Source: Planctomycetota bacterium (GTDB lineage Bacteria; Planctomycetota; UBA1135). From it: a stretch of DNA of 64,000 nt. Made by a program: the position numbers and the translations under genes. The first letter of the stretch is position 1; each line of letters starts with the position of its first letter. Below, piece by piece: positions 18,926-39,600 of the stretch. The DNA is taken from NCBI GenBank assembly GCA_004295085.1, contig SHNF01000002.1, forward strand, positions 310,001 through 374,000. Direction: 5' to 3'. Under the pieces are notes generated by a model that did not search any database, had not been told where the DNA came from, and saw only the letters and a list, made by a program, of their open reading frames with translations.

Positions 18926-21900
18926 CTATGCGCCCTGTGCGCTTATGACCGTCGATGGATCGCCACGCCTTGTTGTCAGCAAGTAAAGCACCGGCAGCAC
19001 GATGAGCGTGAGGAGCGTCGACGAGACGAGGCCGCCGATGACGACCGTGGCAAGCGGCCGCTGGACCTCGGCACCCATTCCCATGTTCAGCGCCATCGGC
19101 AGGAATCCGAGCGCCGCCACCAGTGAAGTCATCAAAACCGGGCGCAGGCGGCGCTCACCCGCCTCGAGTACGGCCTCGCGAATCGGCAGCCCCTGCGCAA
19201 CGAGTTGCTGGATCGTCGAGACGAGCACCATGTCGCCGAGCACGGAGACGCCCGACAAGGCGATGAAACCAACGCCGGCGGAGACACTGAAGGGCATGTC
19301 GCGCACCCACAACGCGATGATGCCGCCGACCGCGGCGAAGGGCACGCCGGTGAACACGCGCAGCGCGTCCAGGACGCGCCCGTAGGTGAAGTAGAGGAGG
19401 ATGAAGATGAGACCGAGCGCCACCGGGACAACGACGAACAAGCGGCTTCGCGCACGCTCGTAGTGCTCGAACTGGCCGCCGAAGCGCACGTAGTAGCCCT
19501 CGGGCAAGACGACGCGCCCGTCGATCGCGTCCATTGCCTCAGCCACGAAGCTGCCGACGTCGCGGCCGCGGACATTGGCCTGAACGACGACGCGACGCTT
19601 GCCCCACTCGCGATTGATCGTCGCTGCACCCTCGTCCCGCTCGACGCGCGCCAGCATCCCGAGCGGCACACGATCGCCGTTGGCCGCGACCACCAACACG
19701 TCTGCCAGCGCGTGCTCGTCCGTCCGGTAGCGGTCGTCGAGGCGGACCGCGATCGGGAATCGGCGCTCCCCCTCCTGCAGCTCGCCTACCTTAATCCCGC
19801 CGAGCGCTTCCACCAGCGCCAGGACTTCCTGGGCCGGAATCCCGTGGCGCGCGATGGCATCGCGGTCTACCACGACACGGACGAGCGGCTGCCCGGTCAG
19901 CTGCTCCGAATACAAGTCGCTGGCTCCAGGAATCCCCTCGAGCAGCGCCCGCACCTCGGCCGCCTTCTCCCGGAGGACTGAAAGGTCGTCTCCGAAGATC
20001 TTGACGCCGACGTCCGCGCGGATGCCAGCGACCATCTCGTTGACGCGCATCTCGATCGGCTGGGTGAAGATCGCGCGCATGCCCGGCAGCCCGGCCGTCA
20101 AGACCTGCATCGCAGCGACCAGATCCGCCTGCGTGTGAGCCTTGCGCCATTGCCCCCGCGGCTTCAGGCTGACGAACACATCGGAGAGCTCGAGCCCCAT
20201 CGGATCAGTGGCCACTTCGGCGGTGCCCGTGCGCGTCCATACGCGCTCGATCTCATCCGGAAATGCCGAGAGCAGCGCCCGCTCGATCTGGGTGCCATAG
20301 CGGACCGACTCCTCCGCGGACACCCCGGAGAGGCGGACCGTGTTGATGACGATCGTCCCCTCGTCGAGCCGCGGGACGAACTCGCTCCCCAGGCGGGACG
20401 CAAGCCATGCCCCCCCGCAGACGGCCGCGGCCGCGCCGAGGACGACCACCGCACGCCAGCGCAGCGCGGCAGCCAGGACCGGCCGGTAGAGACGCTGGAG
20501 ACCGCGCACCAGCATGTTCTCTTGGTGCTTGGGCTTCGACGGCAGGACCAGGCTCGCGAGCACCGGCATGAGGGTAAGCGACAGCAGCATCGAGCCAATC
20601 AGGGCGAAGATTACGGTCAGCGCCATCGGCCGGAATAGCTTGCCCTCGATCCCTTCCAGAGCCAGGACCGGCAGGTACACGATCATGATGATCAGCTCGC
20701 CGAACATGGTCGGGCCCCGGACCTCGAGCACCGCGTCGCGGACGATGTCCGTGCGGCTGCGCGTCCTGCCCTCGAGCCCGAGCCGGCGCACGGCGTTCTC
20801 TACCTGGATCACCGAGCTGTCGACGACCAGACCGAAGTCGATCGCACCCAGGCTCATCAGGCTGCCGGCGATCCCCGCGCGTGCCATGAGATTGAAGGCG
20901 AATAGCAGCGACAGGGGGATCGCCGCAGCGACGATCAGGCCGGCGCGCAGGTTGCCAAGGAACACAAAGAGCACGGCGATCACGAGCAGTGCTCCCTCGA
21001 AGAGATTGGTGCGCACGGTGCGCAGCACTCGGTCGACCAGTGCGGTGCGCTCATAGACCGGTTCGAGGTGGACGCCGGCGGGGAGCGACTTCTCGACTTC
21101 GGCGAGACGCGCCGACAGCGCCCGCGTCACGTCGTGGCTGTTCTCCCCCATGAGGAGGAAGCCGAGCCCAAGGACGACCTCACCCTTGCCGTCCGCGGTC
21201 ACGGCTCCCCGCCGCAGCGCATGTCCATCGACGACCCGTGCCACGTCCCGGACCCGGGTCGGGACGCCGTTCTCGGACGCCACAACAATGCCCTCGATGT
21301 CCTCTGCCCGGGCGACGATCCCGACTCCCTGCACCAAGGCCGCCTCTCCCGCGCCCTCGAGCGTCCCGCCACCGACATTCTGATTGTTGTGCTCGATCGC
21401 CTCGACGAGCTGCGCCAGTGAAAGGCCCCGCTTCTGAAGTTCGCTGGGATCCACGACGACCTGGAATTGGCGCTCCTCGCCTCCCCAGGCATTGACTTCG
21501 GCCACGCCACGCACGGACCTCAGCTGCGAACGGACGATCCAATCGTGGGCTGTTCGCAGCTCGGAAAGTGAGGCACCCTCGCCTGTGACGAGGTAGTGGA
21601 AGACCTCTCCCAGCCCCGTTGCGACCGGACCCATCTGTGGCCGCTCGATCCCCGCCGGTAGCTCGACGCCGCCAAGCCTCTCGGCGACCACCTGCCGTGC
21701 GAGCCAGATGTCGGTCCCGTCCTCGAAGGTGACCGTGACCTGCGAGAGGCCGAAGCGCGAGAGCGAGCGCACCTCCGCAAGCCCCGGCAGACCACCGATC
21801 GCCAGTTCGACCAGGGCCGTTGCCTGGCGTTCGATCTCGAGGGGAGCGAGGGCGGGTGCAACCGTGTTGATCTGCACCTGCACCGGCGTCGTGTCCGGAA

Positions 21901-22015
21901 ATGCATCGATCGGGAGACGGCGGAAGGCGAGGACACCTGCCAGCGCGACTCCCACCCAGGCCAGCACGACGACCAGTCGGTGGCTGAGAGAAAGTTGGAT
22001 GATGCGTGCGAGCAC
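18926..22015 (-). CDS. HME-RND heavy-metal efflux pump (CzcA/CusA family), S-type signature
   Basis: A 1,029-residue inner-membrane proton-driven transporter of the heavy-metal RND family, moving metal ions from periplasm or membrane through the adaptor and outer-membrane factor. The N-terminus (LPIDAFPDTTPVQVQINT) and QPIEMRVNE segment are typical. The family signature in TM4 is D393-FGLVVD399-SSVIQVE406-N; the DSSV/DSAV form is usually associated with a subgroup distinct from the DGAV form of CzcA. GTG start 6 bp after the adaptor stop. It is the last gene of the eight-gene operon. Substrate cannot be fixed from sequence alone. Confidence 0.93.
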   Translation of the reverse strand: MLARIIQLSLSHRLVVVLAWVGVALAGVLAFRRLPIDAFPDTTPVQVQINTVAPALAPLEIERQATALVELAIGGLPGLAEVRSLSRFGLSQVTVTFEDGTDIWLARQVVAERLGGVELPAGIERPQMGPVATGLGEVFHYLVTGEGASLSELRTAHDWIVRSQLRSVRGVAEVNAWGGEERQFQVVVDPSELQKRGLSLAQLVEAIEHNNQNVGGGTLEGAGEAALVQGVGIVARAEDIEGIVVASENGVPTRVRDVARVVDGHALRRGAVTADGKGEVVLGLGFLLMGENSHDVTRALSARLAEVEKSLPAGVHLEPVYERTALVDRVLRTVRTNLFEGALLVIAVLFVFLGNLRAGLIVAAAIPLSLLFAFNLMARAGIAGSLMSLGAIDFGLVVDSSVIQVENAVRRLGLEGRTRSRTDIVRDAVLEVRGPTMFGELIIMIVYLPVLALEGIEGKLFRPMALTVIFALIGSMLLSLTLMPVLASLVLPSKPKHQENMLVRGLQRLYRPVLAAALRWRAVVVLGAAAAVCGGAWLASRLGSEFVPRLDEGTIVINTVRLSGVSAEESVRYGTQIERALLSAFPDEIERVWTRTGTAEVATDPMGLELSDVFVSLKPRGQWRKAHTQADLVAAMQVLTAGLPGMRAIFTQPIEMRVNEMVAGIRADVGVKIFGDDLSVLREKAAEVRALLEGIPGASDLYSEQLTGQPLVRVVVDRDAIARHGIPAQEVLALVEALGGIKVGELQEGERRFPIAVRLDDRYRTDEHALADVLVVAANGDRVPLGMLARVERDEGAATINREWGKRRVVVQANVRGRDVGSFVAEAMDAIDGRVVLPEGYYVRFGGQFEHYERARSRLFVVVPVALGLIFILLYFTYGRVLDALRVFTGVPFAAVGGIIALWVRDMPFSVSAGVGFIALSGVSVLGDMVLVSTIQQLVAQGLPIREAVLEAGERRLRPVLMTSLVAALGFLPMALNMGMGAEVQRPLATVVIGGLVSSTLLTLIVLPVLYLLTTRRGDPSTVISAQGA

Positions 22016-22021
22016 CCGCTC

Positions 22022-23365
22022 TCATTCCTCCGCGCAGCAGCCCGCGCCGATCTCGCCCTTCAACGTCTCCGTTTTTAGGAGGAAGCTGCCGGACACGACC
22101 ACTCGCTCGCCGGCAACGACACCCTGAGCGATGGCTAGTACGTCACCGTGGCGCGCCGAGACTTTGACACGCCGCGTCTCATAGCGTCCGGGCTCCAGCT
22201 CGACGAACACCAGATCGACGCCCCTGGTGGTCTGGACCGCGCCCCGCGGAACCAACACCCGCGCTTCCTTCGGACCGAGCACGATCCGAGCTCGGACAAA
22301 CAGGTTCGACCGGAGGGCCCCCTGGGGGTTTTCCAGGAACACGCGCGCGGTCGCTGTCCTCGTATGGCGGTCGATCTCCGGCGCGATGTAAGCAATGCTG
22401 CCGGCAAACTCTTCGTCACCAAGCGCAGGCGACGTGATGAGGACGTGTTGCCCAGAGCGGACCCGGGCGAGTGCCAGCTCGGGCACGTCCAGCTCTGCCC
22501 ACATCGTGCCGGTGTCGACGATCTCGCACAGTACCTCGTCAGGACCTACCATGCGACCGATCGTAGCGGTCCGATGTATGCACGTGCCGGACAGGGGCGC
22601 GGTGAGCGTGAAAGTACTGCCACTCTCGGGATCCACGCCGACGACGCCGAGCGCAGCTTCCGCCGCGGCCTTTTCCGCGAGGGCGATGTCGAGCTCGGAC
22701 TGCGCCTCCTGCAGGTCCTTTTGCGCCGCCATGCTCCTCTCCAAGAGCCCCTTGGCGCGCTCATGTGCCGCGCGCGCCACCTCGATCCGCGAGCTCGCAG
22801 CGAGCAGACGCGATTGCTCCGCGCCGATCTCGGCGCTCTCGATCCGCACGAGCGGCGCACCCTTCTCGACATGCGCTCCGACCTCGACCAGGATCTCGCG
22901 GACGATGCCGCGCGCCCGGGCATTGACTTCCGCGCGCCGGGTCGCATCGAAGGCGATCGTGCCAAGGACTTCGATCTCGTCCGCAGCTTCCTCGCCGCGA
23001 GCCACGACGGTCTCGATGCCGGCCAGCCGCGCCGTCTCCGCGCTCGCGAGCTGCACCTTGACGCCGCTCGCCGGCGCATCCGAATCGAGACTCACGGCCG
23101 GGCGACCACCGCGCTCGGGGTGGCAGATCGGGCAGAAGGATTCGGGGAAGCCGTGCTCGGGGCACCAATCCCCCTTGGCTTGGAAGATTGGGACGAGCTT
23201 GGGGTTGCACTTTGTGCACACGGCCTCGGCAACACCATGCTCGGCGCAGAAGGCATCCGCTGACGGCACGCTGGCAGCCTCATCCGGCTCTCGGTCCGGC
23301 GCGGAGCCCTCTGTGCAAGCGGCAAGGCAGCCCGCGGCGAGTATGAGAATGGCGAGCGCACGCAT
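22022..23365 (-). CDS. RND periplasmic adaptor lipoprotein with N-terminal Cys/His modules
   Basis: A 447-residue membrane-fusion protein (CzcB/CusB family). N-terminus MRALAILILAAGCLAAC has a lipobox with C17 as the likely lipidated residue. It then carries two copies of a C-x2-H-x6-C-x2-C motif (C40/H43/C50/C53 and C68/H71/C78/C81), a probable metal-binding extension not part of the core adaptor. The core follows: lipoyl half (RARGIVREILVEVGAHVEKGAP), coiled-coil hairpin (about 215-290), second lipoyl half and beta-barrel (ELDVPELALARVRSGQ). C-terminus ends GAGCCAEE. ATG 23365 overlaps the preceding stop by one base (TGATG). Confidence 0.92.
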   Translation of the reverse strand: MRALAILILAAGCLAACTEGSAPDREPDEAASVPSADAFCAEHGVAEAVCTKCNPKLVPIFQAKGDWCPEHGFPESFCPICHPERGGRPAVSLDSDAPASGVKVQLASAETARLAGIETVVARGEEAADEIEVLGTIAFDATRRAEVNARARGIVREILVEVGAHVEKGAPLVRIESAEIGAEQSRLLAASSRIEVARAAHERAKGLLERSMAAQKDLQEAQSELDIALAEKAAAEAALGVVGVDPESGSTFTLTAPLSGTCIHRTATIGRMVGPDEVLCEIVDTGTMWAELDVPELALARVRSGQHVLITSPALGDEEFAGSIAYIAPEIDRHTRTATARVFLENPQGALRSNLFVRARIVLGPKEARVLVPRGAVQTTRGVDLVFVELEPGRYETRRVKVSARHGDVLAIAQGVVAGERVVVSGSFLLKTETLKGEIGAGCCAEE

Positions 23366-23712
23366 CACTTGTCTTCCGGCTTCGGCGGTCGGACCATTTT
23401 CCGGCTCGGATCGCACTGGACGCACTGCGATTCGGGTAGGCCGTGTTCGGCGCACCAGTCCCCGGTTGCCTTGAACGCGGCAGCGAGGGAGGCGTCGCAG
23501 CGAGTGCATGCGGACTCGGGAACGGAGTGCTCCGCACACCAGTCCTCGTAGGAGCCGGGTGCGGCACCGCTCACTCCGTGCGCGGAGGCCGGAGCCTTCT
23601 TGTGTCCGTCTTCGGAAGAATCCTCTCGGGAGCACCCGATCACCAACGCGATGGTGAGACAGGCAGCGAAGGCAGGCAAGCGAGTGATGTTCATGGATGA
23701 TCTCCGTTTCAT
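23365..23712 (-). CDS. small lipoprotein made of two CxxHx6CxxC modules
   Basis: A 115-residue predicted lipoprotein (lipobox VIGC, C27). The mature part is little more than two copies of the module found in the next gene's adaptor: C59/H62/C69/C72 and C87/H90/C97/C100, again exactly 28 residues apart. Each has the consensus CxEHxxPExxCxxC. Likely a free periplasmic metal receptor or chaperone for the pump; this is inference. ATG 23712 is 3 bp after the CzcA-type stop; an alternative ATG at 23694 has GGAGA about 7 nt upstream and still leaves a signal sequence. Confidence 0.85.
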   Translation of the reverse strand: MKRRSSMNITRLPAFAACLTIALVIGCSREDSSEDGHKKAPASAHGVSGAAPGSYEDWCAEHSVPESACTRCDASLAAAFKATGDWCAEHGLPESQCVQCDPSRKMVRPPKPEDK

Positions 23713-23715
23713 GGA

Positions 23716-26700
23716 TCAGAGGCTATCGTGAGGAACAGTGGCCATCGGATTCGGCGCACCGCCCGCCTGCACCCTCTTCGCTCGACCTCCCTCGAAGATC
23801 CGGTACAGGGCGGGAAGCACCAGCAGCGTCAGGAGCGTGCTGGAGATCAGTCCGCCGATGACGACGGTGGCGAGCGGCTTTTGAACCTCCGCGCCCGTGC
23901 CTGTCGCCATGGCCATCGGCACGAAGCCGAGCGAAGCCACCATGGCCGTCATCAGGACGGGTCGGAGGCGGACCAAACCGCCATGAATTATGGCTTCGGA
24001 GAGCTCGCCACCACGAGCGCGCAGCTGGTTGATGAAGGTGACGAGCACGAGGCCATTGAGAACAGCGACCCCCGAAAGAGCGATGAACCCCACGGCAGCC
24101 GAAATCGAGAACGGCATGTCGCGGAGCCATAGTGCGACAATCCCTCCGGTAAGGCCCAGTGGCACTCCTGAGAAGACGAGCAGAGCCTGCCGGGCCGATT
24201 GGAACGTGGTGTACAGGAGCAGGAAGATCAGGACGAAACAGGCGGGAACGACGACCGACAATCGCTTGCGGGCGGCCACGAGGTTCTCGAACTGACCGCC
24301 CCATTCGAGCCACGAGCCGACCGGCAGATCGAGCGCGTTGACACGCGTCTGTGCTTCTGCGGCGAAGGAGCCGAGATCGCGGCCCCGCACATTGCACTGG
24401 ACCACGATCCGCCGCTTGCCGTTCTCGCGGCTGACCTGGTTCGGGCCCTCGGAGACCTCGATGGAAGCAACCGCACCGAGAGGTACGAAGCCTGGGCCGA
24501 TCCGGATGTGTCCCGCCGAGACCGGTGAAACGGTTTCGGCCGACGCTTCCGCGCCCGGGGCGAGAGGGATTGGCAGCTCCTCGAGCCGGTGGACGTCCTC
24601 GCGGACCGCATCCGGCAGGCGCACGACCAGGTCGAATCTGCGGTCTCCCTCGAACACGAGCCCGGCTTGTCGGCCGCCGATGGCCGCCGCGACGACGTCC
24701 TGCACGTCCGCGACGCCCAGGCCGATTCGCGAGATCGCGGCGCGATCGATCCGGATATTCATGGTCGGTAGTCCGGTTGTCTGTTCAACGCGGATGTCGG
24801 CCGCGCCAGGGATCCGGCGCAGGACTCCGGCGATCGTCTGCGCCGTGCGCTCCATGGCGGGGAAGTCGTCTCCATAGACTTTGATTGCGACGTCGCCGCG
24901 CACGCCGGCGATCAGCTCGTTGAAGCGCATCTGGATCGGCTGCGTGAACTCGTAGTTGTGGCCGGCAGCCTCCTGCACAGCCGCCTCCAGCCGCTGCTGC
25001 AGAGTGGACTTGGGAAGCTCCGGATCAGGCCACTCCTCGTGCGGCTTGAGAATGATGAAAGTGTCCGAAACGTTCGGCGGCATCGGATCCGAGGCCATTT
25101 CGGCCGTCCCCGTCTTCGAGAACACGAACGCGACCTCGGGAAAAGCACTGACGATTCTCTCGACTTCAAGCTGCATCTCCGTCGACTGTGCGATCCCGGT
25201 GCTCGGGATCCGCATCGCATGCATCGCGATGTCCTTCTCATCCAGGGTCGGAACGAACTCCTGCCCCAGATGATTGAAGAGCAGCAGTGCCCCTGCGAAA
25301 GCGGCGGCCGCTCCTCCAACGACCCACCACCGCCGCCGCACAGCCATCTCGAGGACCGGCTTGTAGCCGCGTTTGGCTGCGCGCACCAGGACGTTCTCCT
25401 TCTCCGCGACCCTGCCCCGGATCACGAGCGCGACCATAGCTGGAACAAAGGTCAGGGACAGGACGAAGGCGGCGACCAGCGCGAAGATCACGGTCATCGC
25501 CATCGGGCGGAACATCTTGCCTTCGATGCCGGTCAGCGCAAGGATCGGCAGGTAGACCGTGATGATGATGCACGCGCCGAACACGGCCGGGCCAAGGACC
25601 TGACGGCTCGCCTCGAGCACGGCTTCGCGTCTCTCTCCGGTCGCGAGCCGTCGACCCAGAGCGCGTTGCTTCTCGGCCAGGAGGCGCAGCGAGTTCTCGA
25701 CGATGATGACCGCGCCGTCGACGATCAGGCCGAAATCGATCGCGCCGAGGCTCATCAGGTTGCCGCTGATCCGGCTCTGGACCATCCCCGTGGCGGTCAA
25801 CAGCATGGACAGCGGGATCGCGAGAGCGGTCAGGATGGCTGCTCGGATGTTCCCGAGCAGAAGGAAGAGTACTGCGATGACGAGGATCGCACCCTCGAAG
25901 AGGTTCTTCTCGACCGTCTTCACAGTCGCGTCGACGAGTTTGGTCCGGTTGAGGACCGTCTTGACGTGGATGCCGGGCGGGAGCGATTTCGAGACCTCGC
26001 GCATCTTCGCGTCGACGGCGGAGGACACCGTCCGGCTGTTCGCGCCGATCAGCATGAGTGCCGTGCCGACGACGACCTCCGAGCCATCCTCGCTTGCGCT
26101 GCCGGTGCGCAACTCACCTCCGATCCCGACTTCGGCGACGTCGTGGACGTGGATCGGGACACCGTCCCGGGTCGCGATCACGATCGCCGACAGCTCGTCC
26201 AGGGTCTCGATCCGGCCCGCGGCACGAACGACATAGGCCTCGCCGAGGTGCTCGACGAATCCGGCTCCGGTGCTCACGTTGTTGCGCTCCAGGGCTTCGA
26301 TCACCTCGCGGAAGGTCAGGCCAAAGCCCACGAGCTTCTGCGGATCGGGCCGCACTTGGTACTGCTTGAGGTAGCCTCCGATGGAGTCGACTCCAGCAAC
26401 TTCGGGCACGCTCTTGAGCTGCGGGCGGATGATCCAGTCCTGCACCGTGCGCAGGTAGGCGGCGCGCTCGATCTCGGAGTGGAGTCGCTCGCCTTCCGCG
26501 GTGAGATAGCTGCCGTCCGATTGCCATCCAGGCTGTCCGTCCACGACGCCAGCCGCAGGGCTGCCAGGTTGGTCGAAGCCGACCGTCCACATGTAGATTT
26601 CACCCAATCCGGTCGCGATCGGCCCCATTGCCGGCTCGGCGCCGGGCGGCAAGCTCCCACGTACCTGCCCAAGCCGTTCGTTGACCTGATTGCGCGCGAA

Positions 26701-27012
26701 GTAGATGTCGACTTCGTCCTCGAAGATCGCCGTCACCTGTGAAAAGCCATTGCGCGAGAGCGACCTGGAGTACTCGAGACCCGGAATTCCCGCAAGGGAA
26801 GTCTCGACGAGGAAAGTCACCTGCTTCTCGATCTCCAGCGGCGAAAGCGCAGGCGCCACTGTGTTGATGTGGACCTGGTTGTTCGTGATGTCCGGCACAG
26901 CGTCGATGGGCAGATGCGACAGTGAGTACGCGCCCATGGCAGCCGCCATCAGCGTCAACACGATGATCAAGCCCGGGTGGTAGATCGAGAAGCGCAGGAT
27001 GCGTTGCAGCAC
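23716..27012 (-). CDS. czcA: HME-RND heavy-metal efflux pump (CzcA family), DGAV signature
   Basis: A 1,098-residue heavy-metal RND transporter. The TM4 signature is D426-FGLIVD432-GAVIIVE439-N, the DFGx3DGAVx3EN form typical of CzcA/CnrA/NccA-like pumps for Zn, Co, Cd or Ni. N-terminal SHLPIDAVPDITNNQVHINT and QPIQMRFNELIAGVRGDVAIKVYG are family hallmarks. It is longer than the second pump of the operon, with an extra periplasmic insertion near 145-180. It starts 3 bp after the P1B-ATPase stop. It may share the single outer-membrane factor with the other pump. Confidence 0.93.
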   Translation of the reverse strand: MLQRILRFSIYHPGLIIVLTLMAAAMGAYSLSHLPIDAVPDITNNQVHINTVAPALSPLEIEKQVTFLVETSLAGIPGLEYSRSLSRNGFSQVTAIFEDEVDIYFARNQVNERLGQVRGSLPPGAEPAMGPIATGLGEIYMWTVGFDQPGSPAAGVVDGQPGWQSDGSYLTAEGERLHSEIERAAYLRTVQDWIIRPQLKSVPEVAGVDSIGGYLKQYQVRPDPQKLVGFGLTFREVIEALERNNVSTGAGFVEHLGEAYVVRAAGRIETLDELSAIVIATRDGVPIHVHDVAEVGIGGELRTGSASEDGSEVVVGTALMLIGANSRTVSSAVDAKMREVSKSLPPGIHVKTVLNRTKLVDATVKTVEKNLFEGAILVIAVLFLLLGNIRAAILTALAIPLSMLLTATGMVQSRISGNLMSLGAIDFGLIVDGAVIIVENSLRLLAEKQRALGRRLATGERREAVLEASRQVLGPAVFGACIIITVYLPILALTGIEGKMFRPMAMTVIFALVAAFVLSLTFVPAMVALVIRGRVAEKENVLVRAAKRGYKPVLEMAVRRRWWVVGGAAAAFAGALLLFNHLGQEFVPTLDEKDIAMHAMRIPSTGIAQSTEMQLEVERIVSAFPEVAFVFSKTGTAEMASDPMPPNVSDTFIILKPHEEWPDPELPKSTLQQRLEAAVQEAAGHNYEFTQPIQMRFNELIAGVRGDVAIKVYGDDFPAMERTAQTIAGVLRRIPGAADIRVEQTTGLPTMNIRIDRAAISRIGLGVADVQDVVAAAIGGRQAGLVFEGDRRFDLVVRLPDAVREDVHRLEELPIPLAPGAEASAETVSPVSAGHIRIGPGFVPLGAVASIEVSEGPNQVSRENGKRRIVVQCNVRGRDLGSFAAEAQTRVNALDLPVGSWLEWGGQFENLVAARKRLSVVVPACFVLIFLLLYTTFQSARQALLVFSGVPLGLTGGIVALWLRDMPFSISAAVGFIALSGVAVLNGLVLVTFINQLRARGGELSEAIIHGGLVRLRPVLMTAMVASLGFVPMAMATGTGAEVQKPLATVVIGGLISSTLLTLLVLPALYRIFEGGRAKRVQAGGAPNPMATVPHDSL

Positions 27013-27015
27013 GGC

Positions 27016-29202
27016 TCAATCTTCGGAAGTGCGGCTGGGTTGGAGCAGCCGTAGCGCGTTGAGCACTACGAGCAGGGAGACGCCCATGTCGGCGGCGATC
27101 GCCCCCCACAGGGAGGCGAAGCCGGCGAACGCTAGGACGAAGAAAACGGCCTTGACCGCAAGAGACACGATCACATTCTGTCGGATCACGCGCACGGTTC
27201 GGCGTGAATGCCCGATCAGCCAGGACACGTGGGAGAGATCATCCCCCATCAGCGCCACGTCCGCGGTCTCGAGCGCCGCATCCGTCCCGGCGGCGCCCAT
27301 CGCGATGCCGAGGCTCGAGCGCGCGAGGGCCGGAGCGTCATTGACTCCGTCGCCGACCATCGCAACCCTTCCGTGCTCGGCAACGAGCTCCTCGATTGCC
27401 TGGACCTTGTCCTGCGGCAGCAACTCGGCCCTGACTTCGTCGATGCCGGCCTCCCTGGCGACCCTCTCCGCGGTCCCGCGGTTGTCTCCGGAGAGCATCA
27501 CAACCCGCTCGATTCCTGCTCGGCGCAACTTCTGGATCGACGCTGCGGCACCATCGCGCAGGCGATCGGCGAGCGCAACATAGCCGCAGATGTGCTCCTC
27601 TCGTCCAACGACGACCACGCTCGAGCCGGAGCTTGCCAGCGCCTCGAGCTCCCGATGAATCTCCTCACTTTCCTGTCCACGCTCGTCCAGGTAGCGGTGA
27701 GAGCCAAGCCAGTGGTCGACCCCTTCGATCCTCGCGTGCGCACCCTTGCCGGGGAGCATCTGGAAGTCGGTTGCCGGAACCGGTCGAATGCCCTTCTGTG
27801 CGGCATGCTCGACGATGGCGCGCGCAAGTGGATGAGTCGATCGCATCTCGACGGCAGCGGCGATCGCGAGCAGCTCCGCCTCGTCATGTCCCGCGCGTGG
27901 CACGACAGCGCTGACGCGGGGGCGGCCCTCTGTGAGCGTACCGGTCTTGTCGAGCGCGATTGCCACGAGTCGCGCCGGCGCCTCGAGATACGCGCCTCCC
28001 TTCACCAGGACGCCTTGCCGCGCCGCGGCGGCGAGCGCGGCGACGACGCTGACCGGGGTCGCGATCACCAGCGCGCAGGGACAGGCGATGACCAGCAGGA
28101 CCAGCGCCTGGTAGAACCACTTCTCCCACAATCCACCGAGGAGGGGAGGCACGACGGCCAGCAGCACGGCGGCCGCCATGACGGTTGGCGTGTAAATGCG
28201 TGCAAAGCGCTCAACCCACTGTTCGCTGGGTGAGCGACGCGCGTGCGCCTCTCCGACCATCTTCGCGATCTGTGAGAGAGTACTATCGGCAAACGGCTTG
28301 ACCGTCCTCACTTCGACGGCGCTTTCCTCGTTGACCGTACCGGCGAAAACCTCGCTGCCCTCTTCTTTCAGCACGGGAACGGACTCGCCAGTGATCGGCG
28401 CCTGGTTGACCGTTGTCCGCCCGCGCACGATCCGGCCGTCGAGGGGAAACTTCTCCCCAGGCTTCACGACCACGAAGGCGCCCACGGCCACGGAGGCTGC
28501 GTCGACGAGTTCCTCGTTGTTTCCGGGGCCGAGGACCCGGGCCCTGGACGGACTGAGTGTCATCAGCGCGGCGATCGCCTTGCGGGCGCGGCCGATGCTC
28601 CAGGACTCGAGGGCGAGCGATACCGCGAACAGGAAGGCAACGGTCGCCGCCTCGAACCACTCACCGATGCCAATTGCGCCGAGGATCGCGACGCACATGA
28701 GCAAGTTCATGTCCAGGCGCGCGCGCCGCAGCGCAAGCCAGGCCTTGGGCGCGACGAACCACGCGCCAAGGACGGTGGACGCAAGAAAAGCGCAGCGCGC
28801 GACGAGCGGCGCGCCGGTTCCTTCCTCGCCCCCAATCGCAGCGCGCCAGCCGGCCCCCGCCACGTGGGTGCTGAAGCCAAGGGCGAGCAGGAAACCGCTC
28901 GCGGCCGTCGTCCAAGCGCGCCGGAGGCGGCCGGAATCGGTCGACCCCTCCTCGGTGCCGCGCTCTTCCCACGGCTCGGCAGTCATGCCCGTGCGGGCGA
29001 CGGCAGCGAGCACGCCTTCCGGACTCGTTCCGCCTGGATCGAGTTCCACGGTCATCCTGCGCTGGAGCAGGTCGAAGTTGAGGGACTTTAGGCCATCGAG
29101 GGCCGCAAGCTGCTCGCGCAAGGTCGCGATCTCCTCCGCGCAGTCCATGCCGCGGATGAGGAAGGAGACGCTTCGCTCTGTCGGTGTGTTCTTGGCGCCC
29201 AT
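27016..29202 (-). CDS. P1B-type (Zn/Cd/Pb) metal-transporting ATPase
   Basis: A 728-residue inner-membrane ATPase that exports divalent soft metals to the periplasm. Motifs in order: HMA-like domain with GMDC21AEE, TGES (271-274), CPC (374-376) in the transmembrane metal site, DKTGT (418-422, phosphorylated Asp), HP (457-458), GDGVNDAP, and a C-terminal DMGVSLLVVLNALRLL helix with the Asp typical of the P1B-2 (ZntA/CadA) group. The N-terminal HMA keeps only one Cys of CxxC. ATG overlaps the adaptor stop by one base (TGATG), so it is translationally coupled. Confidence 0.93.
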   Translation of the reverse strand: MGAKNTPTERSVSFLIRGMDCAEEIATLREQLAALDGLKSLNFDLLQRRMTVELDPGGTSPEGVLAAVARTGMTAEPWEERGTEEGSTDSGRLRRAWTTAASGFLLALGFSTHVAGAGWRAAIGGEEGTGAPLVARCAFLASTVLGAWFVAPKAWLALRRARLDMNLLMCVAILGAIGIGEWFEAATVAFLFAVSLALESWSIGRARKAIAALMTLSPSRARVLGPGNNEELVDAASVAVGAFVVVKPGEKFPLDGRIVRGRTTVNQAPITGESVPVLKEEGSEVFAGTVNEESAVEVRTVKPFADSTLSQIAKMVGEAHARRSPSEQWVERFARIYTPTVMAAAVLLAVVPPLLGGLWEKWFYQALVLLVIACPCALVIATPVSVVAALAAAARQGVLVKGGAYLEAPARLVAIALDKTGTLTEGRPRVSAVVPRAGHDEAELLAIAAAVEMRSTHPLARAIVEHAAQKGIRPVPATDFQMLPGKGAHARIEGVDHWLGSHRYLDERGQESEEIHRELEALASSGSSVVVVGREEHICGYVALADRLRDGAAASIQKLRRAGIERVVMLSGDNRGTAERVAREAGIDEVRAELLPQDKVQAIEELVAEHGRVAMVGDGVNDAPALARSSLGIAMGAAGTDAALETADVALMGDDLSHVSWLIGHSRRTVRVIRQNVIVSLAVKAVFFVLAFAGFASLWGAIAADMGVSLLVVLNALRLLQPSRTSED

Positions 29203-30515
29203 CAGTGCTCGTGCTGGGCCGAGGCCTTGCCGTGCTCGGCCTTGAGGCGGAACGCGCCGGCGACGACGACGAATTCGCCTGGCTGCAGGCCAGCGAGTAC
29301 CGGAACGTGGACACCGACCGGAGTACCGATCTCAATCTCGTGCTTGCAGAACACGCTGCCTCCGGCCTCGACCGGAACGAAGACGGCCGGACGGCCTTCG
29401 ACGGTCAGGACGGCGCCGTCCGGAACAGCAAGTGCCAGAACTCCTGCGCCGAGCGCCGACTCGATTTCGACCTGGATAAACATTCCTGGCAACATCGTTT
29501 CATCCGGATTCGGCACCTCGACTCGCACTTCCGCGGTTCGCGTCGAGGCCTCGAGCACGGGGGAGATGGCAGCGACACGGCCCTCGCAGCCGCCGTGCTT
29601 CAGGGCTGGGACCTCGACCTTGGCAGGGGCGCCAACCGCGACCTCTGCGAGACGCGACTCACTGACTTCGGCGATGGCCCAGAGGATCGACAGGTCGCCA
29701 ATGACCAGCAGGCGGTCCTTGCCTGGATCGACGAGCTCACCGAGAGTCGGCGCAACCTCGACGACGCGGCCGGCAATCGGCGCCGTGATCGGGAAGCGTG
29801 GATCGACCTTGCCACTCCGCTCGAGCTCGTGAATCGAAGACTCGCTCATGCCCAATAGCAACAGACGATTCCTCGCCGCGGCCTCGATTGCACGCGCGAC
29901 CTCGAGATCGCGCTCGGCCTGACGCAACCCGGTCTCCAGGCGCTGGACATCGGATAGCGCGATCCCCTGGACCCGTTCAAAGAGCTCCTTGGCGCGCTCG
30001 TAGGAACTGCGCGCGATCTCGAGCGTCGGCCCGGCAGTGGAGGCCACCGTGCGCTTCTGGAGATAGTCGCTCTGGGCTTCGCCCAGCTCCGGGCTCTCCA
30101 CCACGAGCAGCACATCACCCTTCGCCACGCTGTCTCCGGACCGCACGCGCAGCTCGGCGATCCGCCCGGCGACCGCCGAGCCGATGCGCGCCACCGCCCC
30201 TTGGGGAAAGGCGAGATGACCGGGCGCAGAGATGGTAGGCGTAAGTGCCACCTCGCGCACGGGCGCAACCTCGATGCCGTAGCGGGCGAGCGCGTCCGTG
30301 CCGAGTTCGACGTCGTCATCGCAGTCACGGCGATCCTCTGCAACGTGGTGGGCGTCATCCTTCGGCTCGGCCTGCTCCGTGCCGGTTTCGTCGTGGTCCT
30401 CATGCTCTGCGGCACTCCCTCCGCTACAGCCAGCCCCGGCTGCACAGAGCAGCATGAGAAAGGCGGCCTGGACGGTGCCCCGGAAAGAAGATGTGCGGGT
30501 GCTGCTGGAGTTCAT
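29202..30515 (-). CDS. czcB: RND periplasmic adaptor (CzcB-like) lipoprotein, His/Asp-rich N-terminus
   Basis: A 437-residue membrane-fusion protein. The N-terminus has a hydrophobic segment ending in AAGAGC (probable lipoprotein) and then an acidic His-rich stretch (EHEDHDE, DDAHH, about 35-70) that could sequester divalent metal. The core has lipoyl half-motif RIGSAVAGRIAELRVRSGDSVAKGD, a coiled-coil hairpin (about 150-215), beta-barrel, and a final domain (KHEIEIGTPVGVHVPVLAGLQ). It ends in another His cluster (HGKASAQHEH). Starts 2 bp after the outer-membrane-factor stop. Likely partners the DGAV-type pump, by CzcCBA analogy. Confidence 0.9.
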   Translation of the reverse strand: MNSSSTRTSSFRGTVQAAFLMLLCAAGAGCSGGSAAEHEDHDETGTEQAEPKDDAHHVAEDRRDCDDDVELGTDALARYGIEVAPVREVALTPTISAPGHLAFPQGAVARIGSAVAGRIAELRVRSGDSVAKGDVLLVVESPELGEAQSDYLQKRTVASTAGPTLEIARSSYERAKELFERVQGIALSDVQRLETGLRQAERDLEVARAIEAAARNRLLLLGMSESSIHELERSGKVDPRFPITAPIAGRVVEVAPTLGELVDPGKDRLLVIGDLSILWAIAEVSESRLAEVAVGAPAKVEVPALKHGGCEGRVAAISPVLEASTRTAEVRVEVPNPDETMLPGMFIQVEIESALGAGVLALAVPDGAVLTVEGRPAVFVPVEAGGSVFCKHEIEIGTPVGVHVPVLAGLQPGEFVVVAGAFRLKAEHGKASAQHEH

Positions 30516-30517
30516 GG

Positions 30518-31909
30518 CTAAGGTTGCTGCGGAGTCCAGGTCAGGACGGAGCGAAGGACGGAAGGGCCGCCCACCGAGCGTTGGAGGCGGATGTGGGCCG
30601 AAGTCACCGCGCGCGAGACGTCGATCCGGCGCGCTTGGGATTGCTGCAGAGCCTGGTCAGCGAACAGCAGCGCCGTGGCATCCACCAACCCAAGCTGAAA
30701 GGCTTCCGCGATCTCGGCGCGCCGGCGCTCCTGCAAGGGGATCAGGTCATCCACGATGCGTTCCAGGCTCTCCTGCGCCCCGACGAAGGTCTCGAGGGCG
30801 CTTCGGACATCCTCGACCACGCCGCGGCGCGCTTGGGTCAGCCGGTGGCGTTGCTCGGAGGTCAGCGCCCGGGCTCGCTCTCGGCGCGCCTGGCCTGTAT
30901 CGAACAGTGGCAGCGGCGTCGAGATGCTTGGTCCCAAGGACCATTCGCCATCACGCTCTGCCTCGACTCCGGCGCTTGCTCCGTCCAGCGCCCGACCGCC
31001 CGCGAGCGCCTCCTCGTCCTCGCGTGCACGCAACTCCCACTCGATGGCCAGGAGCTCGGGCCGGTGCTCCAGGGCGGCGTCGATCCATGCTTGCTCCGTC
31101 GCGGGGATCGGCTCGAACGGGCTCCACGGATCCAGCGTCCACGTCGCGGACCCGGACGGCTCGCCGATCGCGCGGGACAGGGCGAAGCGCGCGACCCGGA
31201 GCTCGCGGCGGCGAAGGTCAAGCTCGACGCCGAGCAGCATCCGTTCGGCATCGAGCGCGGTGACATCGTGGCGCGTACCCTGGCCGAAGTCGAGCCGGGC
31301 CTGTGCCACCTCACGCAGGCGGTCGAGCACGGTGAGACGCTGCTCCAGTACAACGACCAGAGCTTCGAGGGCCTGGACTTCGGAGTAGCGCTGCTCGATT
31401 CCGGCCACAACGTCCAGTGCGGTCGAGAGAGCGTTGGCGACCTCCGCCTCCAGCCGATTGCCTGCCGCGCTGGCGCGGCGTGGTCGCTGTAGGATGGCGA
31501 GCAGATCCGCAGCGAGGCCCGCTTCGACATCCGGACTTCCTCCTCCCTCGGGAAACCGCAAGACGATGCTGAGAATCGGGTTGGGAAGCAGGGCGGCAAG
31601 TTCGGCATCGGCCTGCGCCGCTCGCACACGGGCCAGAGCAGCCTGCAGCTCCGGACTTGTCTCCACCCCGCGCCGCAGCGCACTGGCCACGGAAAGAGCA
31701 TCGGCCGGCCCGGCTCTGGCATCTATTGGACCACCCTCGCTGCGGAATGCTACTGCGTCCGCAAACTCCAACGAGCGGGCGATGGCACCCCCTGGATCCG
31801 GCTGTGGGTGTGCGACCGTGCATCCGGCCGCCAGGACGGCGACCAGAATCCCGCGGAGACAGCGCCTTTCCGGCGCCGCACTGAACGTAATCGTGGAAGC
31901 GAGAGTCAT
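30518..31909 (-). CDS. czcC: TolC-family outer-membrane efflux protein (CzcC-like)
   Basis: A 463-residue outer-membrane factor. Signal peptide or lipoprotein start GILVAVLAAGC. Long alpha-helical hairpins with internal duplication follow: SVASALRRGVETSPELQAALARVRAAQADAEL and AALEHRPELLAIEWELRAREDEEAL begin the two halves, as in TolC/CzcC. PLPLFDTGQARRERARA is the typical second-repeat motif. It forms the outer channel of the tripartite pumps; it is the only such gene in the operon. AAGGA lies 3 nt upstream of the ATG. Confidence 0.9.
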   Translation of the reverse strand: MTLASTITFSAAPERRCLRGILVAVLAAGCTVAHPQPDPGGAIARSLEFADAVAFRSEGGPIDARAGPADALSVASALRRGVETSPELQAALARVRAAQADAELAALLPNPILSIVLRFPEGGGSPDVEAGLAADLLAILQRPRRASAAGNRLEAEVANALSTALDVVAGIEQRYSEVQALEALVVVLEQRLTVLDRLREVAQARLDFGQGTRHDVTALDAERMLLGVELDLRRRELRVARFALSRAIGEPSGSATWTLDPWSPFEPIPATEQAWIDAALEHRPELLAIEWELRAREDEEALAGGRALDGASAGVEAERDGEWSLGPSISTPLPLFDTGQARRERARALTSEQRHRLTQARRGVVEDVRSALETFVGAQESLERIVDDLIPLQERRRAEIAEAFQLGLVDATALLFADQALQQSQARRIDVSRAVTSAHIRLQRSVGGPSVLRSVLTWTPQQP

Positions 31910-32437: not shown

Positions 32438-32853
32438 GCACAGATGCTAGCACGCCAGCAGCGGAAGCGGAAGCCAGGCAGCGTGGTGAGAGCCAATTGA
32501 CCGGGTAGGCTTGCCCTTGAGTCGCCGGGCTGGCGATGTGCCCTGCCTGCGGCGCTTTGTTGACGGCATTGACCTCGTATTGCCTTGTCTGACAGTCCCT
32601 TAGAGCAATGCCCGTGGCGGACAGACCGGTCCGGCTGACTCGCTCTTGCACCGCCCGGCTGGCCTTACGGCATTGGTGTCATCCCACTCCTCCCCAAGGA
32701 GGTTCCGAAGAACCAGCAGAATGGCCATCCTCAGAGGCAGATGCCACGCACATACCACGCACGGTGACGGGCGAGCGCCGCCCGCCGCAATCCGCTCCGC
32801 TGAATTGTGCACCTGGGTGCGGCGCCCGCTGGTCTATCCTGGGAGGTGCATTC
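32438..32853. other. 416-bp divergent intergenic region at the metal-operon head
   Basis: Holds the minus-strand operon promoter at its left end and the plus-strand flavoprotein ribosome binding site (GGGAGGTG, 32841-32848) at its right end. Composition changes from the lower-GC operon to high GC around 32,740. No supported gene, repeat pair or integration site was seen. Confidence 0.5.
32444..32449 (-). promoter_or_regulatory. TAGCAT -10 element, probable promoter of the metal operon
   Basis: Read on the minus strand, TAGCAT ends six bases before ATG 32437, identical in sequence and spacing to the hexamer before the gene at 6550. TTCCGC (32472-32467, minus) sits 17 bp further upstream as a weak -35. 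No MerR-type spaced palindrome was recognised. Confidence 0.5.
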
Positions 32854-34254
32854 ATGGCCAAGGGCGCGACCTACGCGGCGGTCGTCATCGGCACCGGACA
32901 GGGCGGCGTGCCGCTGGCCAAGGCTCTGGCCGAGGCCGGCTGGAAGACCGCGATCGTCGAGAAGGAGGCGGTCGGCGGCACCTGCATCAACTACGGCTGC
33001 ACGCCCACCAAGACCATGGTGGCGAGCGCCCGGGTCGCCTACCTGGCCCGGCGCGCCGCGGACTACGGGGTGCGCACCGGCACGGTGGCGGTGGACCTCG
33101 CGCGCGTGCGCCGGCGCAAGCGCGCCCTCGTGCGCCAGTTCCGCGCCGGCAGCGAAGCCGGGCTGCGCTCCACGCGGCGCCTGCACCTCCTGTTCGGCAC
33201 GGCCAGCTTCGCGGGGCCGCACGAGCTCCGCGTCCGGTCCCGGGACGGCGCCGTGCGCCTGCTGCGCGCCCGGCACGTCTTCATCAACGTCGGCTGCCGC
33301 CCGCGTCCGGCGCGCGTTCCGGGGATCGAGAGCGTGCGCACGCTCGATTCCACGTCCATCATGGAGCTGGACCGCGCGCCGCGCCACCTCGCCATCCTCG
33401 GCGGCGGCTACGTCGGGATCGAGTTCGGCCAGATGTTCCGCCGCTTCGGCAGCGCGGTGACCATCCTCGATCGCGGCTCCCACCTGCTCGACCGCGAGGA
33501 CGAGGACGTCTCCGCGGGCGTGGAGGAGGTCCTGCGCGGAGACGGGGTCAAGCTCCTGCTGCGCGCCGAGGTGGACCGCATCGGCAGGACTGCCGGCGGC
33601 CGCATCGCGCTCGCGGCGCGCGCGGGGCGGCGGCGCCACCGCGTCGTGGCCGACCAGCTGCTGGTCGCGACCGGACGCGAGCCCAACACGCACGACCTGG
33701 ACGCGGAGGCCGCCGGCATCACCCTGGACGAGCGCGGCTTCGTGGTCGTCAACGACCGGCTGGAGACCTCCGTGCCGGGCGTCTATGCGCTGGGTGACGT
33801 CACCGGCGGTCCCGCGTTCACGCACATCTCCTGGGATGACCACCGCATCCTGGAAGCCAACCTCCTGCACGGCGGCGACGCCAGCACCAGGGGGCGCCTG
33901 GTGCCCTACACCGTGTACCTGGACCCGCAGCTCGGGCGGGTCGGCATGAGCGAGCGCGAGGCGCGCGCGTCCGGCCGCCGGGTCCGCGTCGCCACGCTGC
34001 CGATGGCGCACGTGGCGCGCGCTCTCGAGATGGACGAGACCCGCGGCTTCCTCAAGGTGATCGTGGACGCGCACGACGACCGGATCCTCGGCGCGGCCGT
34101 CCTCGGCGTCGAGGGCGGCGAGATCATGAGCGCGATCTCGATCGCGATGATGGCAGGCCTGCCTTACCCGCGCCTGCGCGACGGCATCTTCGCCCACCCG
34201 ACGCTGATGGAAGCCTTGAACAACCTGTTCTTCCACCTCACGGACGCGGAGTGA
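32854..34254 (+). CDS. mercuric-reductase-like FAD/NAD(P) disulfide oxidoreductase
   Basis: A 466-residue class-I pyridine nucleotide-disulfide oxidoreductase. FAD-binding VVIGTGQGGVPLAKALAEAG is followed by the redox-active disulfide C44-x4-C49 (GTCINYGCTPTK), NAD-binding LGGGYVGIEFGQMF, second FAD motif VPGVYALGDVTG, and the dimerisation domain with HPTLMEAL supplying the His-Glu pair. Unlike true MerA it has no N-terminal HMA domain and no C-terminal Cys pair (ends HLTDAE), so mercury reduction is doubtful. ATG 32854 has GGGAGGTG upstream. Proximity to the metal operon may be coincidental. Confidence 0.88.
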   Translation: MAKGATYAAVVIGTGQGGVPLAKALAEAGWKTAIVEKEAVGGTCINYGCTPTKTMVASARVAYLARRAADYGVRTGTVAVDLARVRRRKRALVRQFRAGSEAGLRSTRRLHLLFGTASFAGPHELRVRSRDGAVRLLRARHVFINVGCRPRPARVPGIESVRTLDSTSIMELDRAPRHLAILGGGYVGIEFGQMFRRFGSAVTILDRGSHLLDREDEDVSAGVEEVLRGDGVKLLLRAEVDRIGRTAGGRIALAARAGRRRHRVVADQLLVATGREPNTHDLDAEAAGITLDERGFVVVNDRLETSVPGVYALGDVTGGPAFTHISWDDHRILEANLLHGGDASTRGRLVPYTVYLDPQLGRVGMSEREARASGRRVRVATLPMAHVARALEMDETRGFLKVIVDAHDDRILGAAVLGVEGGEIMSAISIAMMAGLPYPRLRDGIFAHPTLMEALNNLFFHLTDAE

Positions 34255-36698: not shown

Positions 36699-39600
36699 AT
36701 GAGCCTGACCGGCAGCCTGGTGATCGTCGCGGCGGCCGCGTGCGCGCCGCCGCAGGAGCCCGGCACGCACGCGGTCGGGGTGGCGCGCGCCGACATCACG
36801 CCGGAGGGCCCGGTGCGGCTGAGCGGCTACGCGGCGCGCCAGGGCGAATCGGACGGGGTGGAGCAGCGCCTGACCGTGACCGCGCTGGCCATCGGCGGCG
36901 GCGCGCAGGCGCCCGCGCTCCTGATCAGCGTGGACACCGCGGCGATCCCGGCGGTCCTGACCCAGGAGATCACGTCCTTCCTGCAGCAGGAGGCCGGAAT
37001 CCCGCGCGAACGGATCGTGCTGAGCTGCACGCACACGCACACCGGGGCCTGGTTGTGGCCCTCGATCCCGAACATGTTCGGCGGCCCGGTGCCGGAAGAC
37101 CAGGTCGAGCGCGCCCGGCAGCACACGCGCGCGGTGGTGGCGAAGATCGAGCAGGCGGCGCTGGCCGCGCTGGCGGACCTTGCGCCGGCGCGCCTGGATT
37201 TCACGCGCGGACTGTGCCGCTTCGCCGCCAACCGGCGCACGGCAGGCGGCCCCGTGGACCACGACGTGGAGCTGCTGCGCGCCCGCGCGCCGGACGGGGT
37301 CCTGCGCGCGCTGCTGGTCAACTACGCCTGCCACTGCACGACCCTGGGCGGCGACTTCAACCGCGTGTGCGGCGACTGGGCCGGCTACGCGCGCGAGTAC
37401 CTCGAAGCCGCGCACCCCGGCGCCCTGGCCCTGATGACCATCGGCTGCGGCGCGGACGCCAATCCTGCGCCCCTCGGCACGCTGGAATTCGCGCAGCGCA
37501 ACGGCCGCGAGCTCGCGGACGCGGTGGAGCGCGCGCTGGACGGCGAGTTCACGGCCGTCCGCAGCCCCCTGCAGGCGCGCCTGCAGGAGCTGTCCCTGGC
37601 GTTCGAACCCCTGCCCACCGGGGAGCAGTGGCGCGAGCGCGCGGGCTGGGACTGGGCGCACGGCGCCCATCACGCGCGCCGGAACCTGGAGCGCCTGGAG
37701 CGCGGCGAGACCCTGCCGCAGAGCCTGCCGTACCCGGTCCAGTGCTGGAGCTTCGGGGACGAGCTGGCGCTCGCGTTCCTGGGCGGCGAAGTGGTCGTGG
37801 ACTACGCGCTGCGCCTGAAGCACGAGCTGGACTCCGACCGCTTCTGGGTGAGCGCGTACTGCAACGACGTCGCCTGCTACATCCCATCCGAGCGCATCCT
37901 GCGCGAAGGCGGATACGAGGCCGAATGGGCCATGATCTATTACGATCAGCCGGCGCGCCTGGCGTCCGGAGTGGAGGACCGCATCCTCGCCGCGGTGCAC
38001 GACCTGCTGCCGGACGGGTTCGAAGCGCGCACCGGCATCGATGTCGCGCGCACCGAGGGCGTGCCACCGCGGCCGCCGCGGCGCTCACTCGCCTGCATGC
38101 GCACCGATCCTGGCCTGGAGGTGCAGCTCGTGGCCTGCGAACCGCTCGTGGTGGATCCGGTGGCGATCGATTTCGGGCCGGACGGACGCTTGTGGGTCGC
38201 CGAGATGCACGACTATCCGCAGGGCGTGACCGGCCGTTTCGAGCCAGGTGGGCGCATCCGGGCCCTGCAGGACCGGGACGGGGACGGTGTCTTCGACCAG
38301 GCGGCGGTGTTCCTGGATTCCATCCCTTTTCCCACCGGCCTGCTGGCGTGGCGGCAGGGGCTGCTCGTGTGCGCGGCGCCCGACATCCTGTACGCGGAAG
38401 ACGGCGACGGCGACGGCCGCGCCGAGCGCGTGCGCCCGCTGTTCTCCGGTTTCGACACCGGCAACTACCAGGCGCGCGTGAACAGCCTCAGCTACGGGCT
38501 GGATGGCTGGGTCCACGGCGCCAACGGGCTGTTCGGCGGCACCATTCGCAGCTTCTCCGGCGGCGATCCCGTGCGCCTCGACGGTTTCGACTTCCGCATG
38601 AACCCGGACACGGGCGCGTTCGAGACCGTCACCGGCCTGACCCAGTACGGCCGCTGCCGCGACGATTTCGGCAACTGGCTCGGCTGCGACAACGGCACGC
38701 TCCTCTATCACTACGTGCTGGAGGAGCGCCACCTGCGCCGCAATCCGCACCTGGCGCCGCCGCCGCTGCGCCTTCCGATCGCCGCGGGCGACGATCCCAA
38801 CCAGCTGTTTCCGATCAGCCGTCCCAGCGCGCGCTTCAACGACCCGGGCAACCTCCTGCGCGTGACGTCGGCCTGCGGCCTCACGATCTACCGCGACGAC
38901 CGGCTGGGAGCCGAGTACGCCGGCGACGCGTTCGTGTGCGAGCCGGTGCACAACCTGGTGCGGCGCCTGGAGCTGGCGCAGAACGGCAGCACGTACGCGG
39001 CCCATCCGGCGCCGCCGGAGTCCGGCGAGTTCCTGTCCTCGGAGGACAACTGGTTCCGGCCGGTGCAGGTGCGCACCGGGCCGGACGGAGCGCTGTGGAT
39101 CGTGGACATGTACCGCTTCGTCATCGAGCACCCGCGCTGGATTCCGGCGGAAACCCAGGCGGCCCTGGACCTGCGCGCCGGCGACACCATGGGGCGGATC
39201 TACCGCGTGGCGCCGCGGGCGCCGGACGCGCGCGGGCTGCGCCCCTGGCCGCGGCTGGCGGACGCCGGCGCGGCCGAGCTGGCCGGCGCGCTGGAATCAC
39301 GCAACGGCGCCGTGCGCGACCAGGCGCACATGCTGCAGGCGTGGTTTCCGGAACGCTGCGACGCCGCGGCGGTGGCGCGGATCGCCCGCGGCGGGCCGCT
39401 TCCCGCGGCGCGCGCGCAGGCTCTGGCGGTGCTGTCCGGCGCCGGCAAGCTCACGCATCCGGACCTGGCCGCCGCGCTCCAGGACTCCGACGCCGAGGTG
39501 CGGCGCGTCGCGCTGGAGCTGGGCGCCGAGCGCATCGCCGGCTCGATCCCCCTGCTCGACGCGGCGCTGGCGCTGCGGGAGGATCCGAATCCGCGCGTGC

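Follow-up and report, generated by a model that had tools for sequence, protein, structure and literature searches.

A recurrent CHCC module in free lipoproteins and RND adaptors, a candidate periplasmic metal-capture unit for a divalent-type efflux pump

A short cysteine-histidine module with the pattern CxxHx6CxxC (hereafter CHCC) was found four times on the minus strand of the window, the whole 64,000-nucleotide stretch of planctomycete DNA that was analysed. A lipoprotein of 115 aa carries two of the copies, and the product of the adjacent RND adaptor gene carries the other two. The module is a recurrent and so far uncatalogued family, present in free and in adaptor-fused form. Judged from sequence, with a probability of about 0.58, these modules would be periplasmic thiolate metal-capture units for a Zn/Cd-type pump, to which the tethered lipoprotein would supply the ions.

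The lipoprotein modules are encoded at 23497-23538 (CAEHSVPESACTRC) and 23413-23454 (CAEHGLPESQCVQC), and the adaptor modules at 23207-23248 (CAEHGVAEAVCTKC) and 23123-23164 (CPEHGFPESFCPIC), all on the minus strand. Their positions, two in the lipoprotein and two at the adaptor N-terminus, agree with the preliminary description, and six-frame translation of the entire window gave these four matches and no others, against about 0.07 expected by chance (mean 0.065 and maximum 1 in 200 shuffled six-frame translations). The same description gave the pattern as CxEHxxPExxCxxC with an identical 28-residue spacing. The C/H/C/C spacing was present in all four copies, but one copy carries AE instead of PE; the Cys-to-Cys distance between paired modules is indeed 28 residues in both window proteins, whereas relatives also show 24, 26, 27, 30, 32 and 33. 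No Pfam or NCBIfam model scored over its cut-off on the modules of the window lipoprotein and adaptor, no PDB chain matched the lipoprotein in sequence or gave a convincing relative of the module, and no description of it was found in open-licence papers.

The modules belong to a seven-gene metal-efflux operon (18926-31909, minus strand) with intergenic gaps of at most about 6 bases. In 5′ to 3′ order, it encodes an outer-membrane efflux factor (30518-31909), an ordinary CzcB-type adaptor with a His-rich tail and without the CHCC module (29202-30515), a P1B ATPase of the cadmium family (27016-29202, TIGR01512 over cut-off), HME-RND pump 2 (23716-27012, TM4 motif DFGLIVDGAV), the module lipoprotein (23365-23712), the 447-aa module adaptor (22022-23365) and HME-RND pump 1 (18926-22015, TM4 motif DFGLVVDSSV, N-L-D-E site), the partner of the module adaptor. 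Pump 2 probably works with the ordinary adaptor. The module adaptor starts at ATG 23365, which the lipoprotein stop codon overlaps as TGATG. This adaptor passed TIGR01730 (177.6 bits, cut-off 94.9), and pump 1 passed TIGR00914 for CusA/CzcA-family HME-RND pumps (1151.7 bits, cut-off 701.45). Inspection of the N-termini showed a lipobox in the lipoprotein (VIGC) and in the module adaptor (LAAC). The small protein had been taken to be diffusible; it is separate from the adaptor, but its VIGC lipobox indicates that it is probably a lipoprotein tethered to the membrane.

In the pump tree, pump 1 was placed inside a Myxococcota clade (SH-aLRT 99-100), beside locus L106 at 73% identity, and a topology holding the Myxococcota rows together without pump 1 was rejected (AU p 0.006). 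Because pump 1 comes from a planctomycete genome and groups within Myxococcota, horizontal transfer is likely, and the lipoprotein-adaptor-pump block was likely acquired in this way, with a binning error as a residual alternative.

The motif search among RND adaptors that had been proposed earlier was carried out, and showed that the module recurs in three phyla, almost always beside a CzcA-type pump. Profile searches detected the tandem in 78 of 392 sampled Planctomycetota genomes, in 57 of 195 genomes of the Myxococcota phylum and in 33 of 132 genomes of the Ignavibacterium phylum, where nearly all matches were adaptor-sized frames. Locus L007, from genome G154 of the window's phylum, showed 100% identity over 3150 bases to L038, a Planctomycetota record, which identifies that phylum. 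When 84,980 species genomes were scanned with a single pattern, 268 stretches were confirmed and the 80 best retained. These 80 loci are the closest to one query. The locus counts given below rest on related sequences and are non-independent. Gene ends in the relatives are those of stop-to-stop frames. Two main layouts were observed, adaptor-pump-lipoprotein in Planctomycetota and lipoprotein-adaptor-pump in Myxococcota and the window. An RND pump lay just downstream of 70 of the 74 module adaptors, and a same-strand pump was found within 3.5 kb of most tandem free proteins (49/58). Only two of 72,556 plasmids, both planctomycete, yielded relatives, and none was confirmed on viral contigs. The mobilizable plasmid pK2D_1 carries the module lipoprotein in one gene set with czcC, czcB, czcA, cadA, trxA and czcD.

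A profile scan of the retrieved DNA recovered 391 distinct modules, of which 365 carried all four CHCC ligands. The His was conserved in 100% of the modules, Cys2 in 99%, Cys3 in 98% and Cys1 in 95%, percentages that are biased upward because the profile itself favours C/H/C/C; all other positions were below 90%, with the non-ligand residues W, E, P and S strongly conserved. Modules outside the CHCC set were mostly of the CxH form or had His or probable selenocysteine (Sec) at position 4, and those without Cys1 were mostly the CxH form, which is one residue shorter. The exchange of Cys for His at ligand 4 was observed in three settings: module 2 of the lipoprotein in L040; module 2 of eight adaptors of the Pirellulales type, which reads GWCxEHGVxxCPLxH and differs in spacing; and module 1 of the thioredoxin fusions in L126 and L127. 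Since His in place of Cys retains a metal ligand and would break a disulfide, these swaps weaken a disulfide-only reading of the cysteines.

Four loci carried an in-frame UGA, read as a residue, on a conserved Cys. It fell on a Cys of the adaptor tail in L038 (5652-5654, GAG-U-ADDE-stop) and in L008 (3103-3105, GAG-U-AD-stop, where L101 has GAGCAD); in L027 (1378-1380) and L026 (minus strand, positions 1378-1380 of the reverse complement) it fell on ligand 4 of the third module. In L026 and L027, the UGA connects a membrane-anchored module part with an adaptor frame that lacks its own signal peptide. A hairpin begins about 18 nt 3′ of each UGA, of which only that of L008 clearly beats shuffled sequences in stability. 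Both tRNA-Sec and SelB scored over their cut-offs in the genome of L027 (G199), whereas tRNA-Sec only was found for L038 (G725), SelB only for L026 (G173), and neither over cut-off for L008 (G160, a 61% complete genome). Selenocysteine is thus probable in the L026, L027 and L038 adaptors or modules and may occur in L008. The replacement of Cys by Sec would suggest a reactive or soft-metal thiolate at these positions. The genome of the window, with tRNA-Sec and SelB over their cut-offs (G000:C6:261729-261821 and G000:C5:371872-373743), probably makes selenoproteins as well.

The module adaptors were also distinguished by their C-termini. Their alignment showed an invariant Gly-Cys near the end, with the consensus SIGAGCC, and in the window the GAGCC tail is encoded at 22034-22048 (minus strand). 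Such a Cys tail was present in 72 of 74 module adaptors. The 9 adaptors of other kinds mostly have His-rich ends, and the Cys tail was seen in only one of them, that of L088. The adaptor ends in L038-L117 likewise showed that the GAGCC tail tracks the CHCC modules. The number of modules per adaptor ranged from one to six, with variable spacing. An AlphaFold2 model of the window adaptor (pLDDT 87, pTM 0.59) had the usual core of such adaptors, with ZneB (fold match E 1.4e-25) and CusB as the nearest matches. The chain of an RND adaptor goes outward from the inner membrane and then returns (PMC4446572). Both the Cys tail and the N-terminal modules should therefore be located near the pump, at the inner-membrane end. 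The lipoprotein tandem was modelled as two similar knuckles with a joining helix (mean pLDDT 84) in a metal-free run, and a Foldseek search of this model against the PDB returned no structural relative.

The pumps paired with module adaptors form a single class. The TM4 motif DFGxxxDS[SA] was present in 64 of 67 classifiable paired pumps versus 1 of 14 other RND pumps of the same loci, and the sole exception among the others lay behind a degenerate module adaptor, again in L088. In the window, pump 1 is of the DFGxxxDS[SA] class and pump 2 has DFGxxxDGA, the signature of HME1/HME2 (PMC3637150). The copper site of CusA consists of M573, M623, E625 and M672 (PMC8092243). At these positions 59 of 63 paired pumps had N-L/V-D-E; pump 1 has N, L and E at M573, M623 and M672 and D at E625. 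A copper pump of the CusA/HME4 type for Cu(I)/Ag(I) was ruled out by the absent Met triad and the DFGxxxD motif in TM4. The lack of the Met triad in the paired pumps makes Zn/Cd-like divalent ions likelier than Cu. The closest solved structure to pump 1 was ZneA, and the pump class, this likeness and the gene set of pK2D_1 would together make Zn/Cd-like divalent ions the likelier substrates, away from Cu(I). Of the metals listed in the preliminary description (Zn, Cd, Cu and Hg), Cu has become less likely and Zn/Cd-like ions are favoured.

A thioredoxin-like gene of the TlpA/AhpC type was found directly 3′ of the pump in 12 of the 22 lipoprotein-adaptor-pump operons with enough downstream sequence versus 0 of 41 loci with other layouts, including adaptor-pump-lipoprotein (Fisher 2e-7, a value that does not allow for kinship between loci). 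In the solitary tandems L122-L127, from several genomes of the Myxococcus phylum, the tandem and a thioredoxin domain are combined in one lipoprotein, located at about 6.4-7.6 kb of each stretch; five of the six stretches had no pump or adaptor nearby, and in L127 an adaptor and a pump lie roughly 2.4 kb downstream. In the window, no thioredoxin-like gene was found near the efflux operon.

We propose a model in which each CHCC module would be a small knuckle with one metal site formed by three Cys and one His. Tandem modules on the tethered lipoprotein and on the adaptor N-terminus would form a periplasmic thiolate trap for divalent ions of soft or borderline character (Zn2+ or Cd2+ in the first place, possibly Hg2+ or Pb2+), and the captured ions would be concentrated at the mouth of one divalent-type HME-RND pump clade. 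The GAGCC tail, expected at this inner-membrane end as well, could act as a second thiol site and might hand the ion onward, while thioredoxin-like proteins in some lineages would hold the thiols reduced. Metal binding, the identity of the metal, its transfer and the direction from lipoprotein to adaptor to pump are what we infer. The role proposed earlier, a metal receptor comparable to CusF plus CusB, fits the free-plus-fused layout, the tie to a metal-type RND pump and the near-invariant C/H/C/C ligands. More tentatively, the CHCC modules, the GAGCC tail, a dedicated thioredoxin-like reductase and, in some species, Sec at a module ligand or in the tail might constitute a redox-maintained thiolate/selenolate relay that passes soft metals to this distinct RND clade. 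If true, this relay would do with thiols what the Cus relay does with methionines, and some RND adaptors would be selenoproteins.

The chief rival to metal capture is that the modules are structural zinc knuckles which hold Zn2+ permanently and dock lipoprotein, adaptor and pump to one another, with no cargo. Structural zinc commonly sits in saturated Cys3His sites, and such a site may hold the metal too firmly for hand-over, which is a point against the capture model; the full four-ligand sites, the strong conservation of W, E, P and S and a weak likeness of a sub-family to B-box zinc fingers are all as a structural knuckle would have them. However, the presence of one to six modules per adaptor at variable spacing speaks against it, and a probable Sec ligand and thioredoxin partners would be unusual for such sites, so that we regard this reading as unlikely, though a serious competitor. 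The same thioredoxin-like genes, adjacent to and fused with modules, and the in-frame UGA at Cys positions would suit a primarily redox role, in which thiol/disulfide or selenol switches respond to oxidants or to thiol stress caused by metals and either gate the pump or protect it. Against such switches, the His at the second position of every module and the Cys4-to-His exchange in three settings fit a ligand and not a disulfide partner, and the near-exclusive pairing with one metal pump clade argues in the same direction; a redox switch is accordingly rated as rather improbable. The case named earlier as refuting, that the Cys form only structural disulfides, gains from the periplasmic location and from the even number of Cys per tandem, but each module holds three Cys, single-module adaptors exist, His is conserved and can replace Cys, and probable Cys-to-Sec changes at ligand positions occur along with associated thioredoxin-like proteins, making this the least credible reading by a wide measure. 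The thiolate capture of Zn/Cd-type ions is thus retained as the preferred reading.

The arrangement has precedents. In the E. coli Cus system, CusF and the CusB N-terminus, and in Cupriavidus the C-terminal CusF-like domain of SilB, likewise provide a capture unit in stand-alone and adaptor-fused forms; these forms, and metal transfer from CusF to CusB to CusA, have been described (PMC4446572). CusF, however, folds as a beta-barrel and serves as metallochaperone for Cu(I)/Ag(I), whereas the present system uses small CHCC knuckles, its separate protein is a lipoprotein and its pump lacks the Met triad. Neither a CusF model nor a PDB chain resembling CusF matched the window lipoprotein or adaptor. 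HMBD (PF19335, CPMHPx...CPxCGM) is also a short CxxH...CxxC unit at the N-terminus of CusB-like adaptors, but has about 10 residues from His to CxxC, compared with 6 in the CHCC module. Membership in PF19335 was rejected, since 16 modules gave no match at E up to 10 with hmmscan and the hhalign probability was 10%; nor was this family among those listed for 55 module lipoproteins. On contig C3 of the window's own genome (L036), a CusB-like adaptor carries one HMBD and a degenerate second copy in the same N-terminal place. The divalent ZneCAB/CzcCBA systems contain the closest adaptor core (ZneB) and pump (ZneA), yet lack CHCC modules, and the ordinary CzcB-type adaptors of the sampled loci have His-rich tails. 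In ZneB, Zn2+ is bound at the interface of the beta-barrel and membrane-proximal domains (PMC4446572).

The ligand spacing CxxH...CxxC is similar in B-box and other CHCC zinc fingers, which gave weak Pfam matches. B-box and similar zinc fingers are eukaryotic intracellular domains, and the resemblance is likely convergence; the sub-threshold matches to DUF5879, B-box Trim66 and CxC6 were taken as chance or convergence. In line with the earlier statement on CusF, no sequence relation of the module to CusF could be detected, nor one to HMBD or any PDB chain. By sequence comparison, it belongs to neither CusF nor HMBD and would resemble the CusF/CusB, SilB and HMBD adaptors in its working. The free-plus-fused layout is already known from CusF/SilB and HMBD adaptors; the CHCC module itself has no entry in Pfam or NCBIfam.

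The periplasmic loading of divalent-type RND pumps is far less understood than loading in the Cus system for Cu(I). The CHCC module has well-defined ligands, exists both separately and as part of adaptors, and accompanies a single pump clade in three phyla. It makes metal delivery to such pumps directly testable, and the ligand swaps and probable Sec variants are natural mutants that indicate which atoms matter. It can also serve as an annotation marker for many hypothetical lipoproteins.

Two further genes were observed in the window. An FAD-dependent pyridine nucleotide-disulfide oxidoreductase (32848-34254) adjoins the efflux operon and is divergent from it; it resembles PRK06370, MerA and lipoamide dehydrogenase, under the curated NCBIfam cut-offs. 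At 36699-41351, a 1550-aa protein has an N-terminus resembling ceramidase together with DUF7133, and matches cytochrome c weakly.
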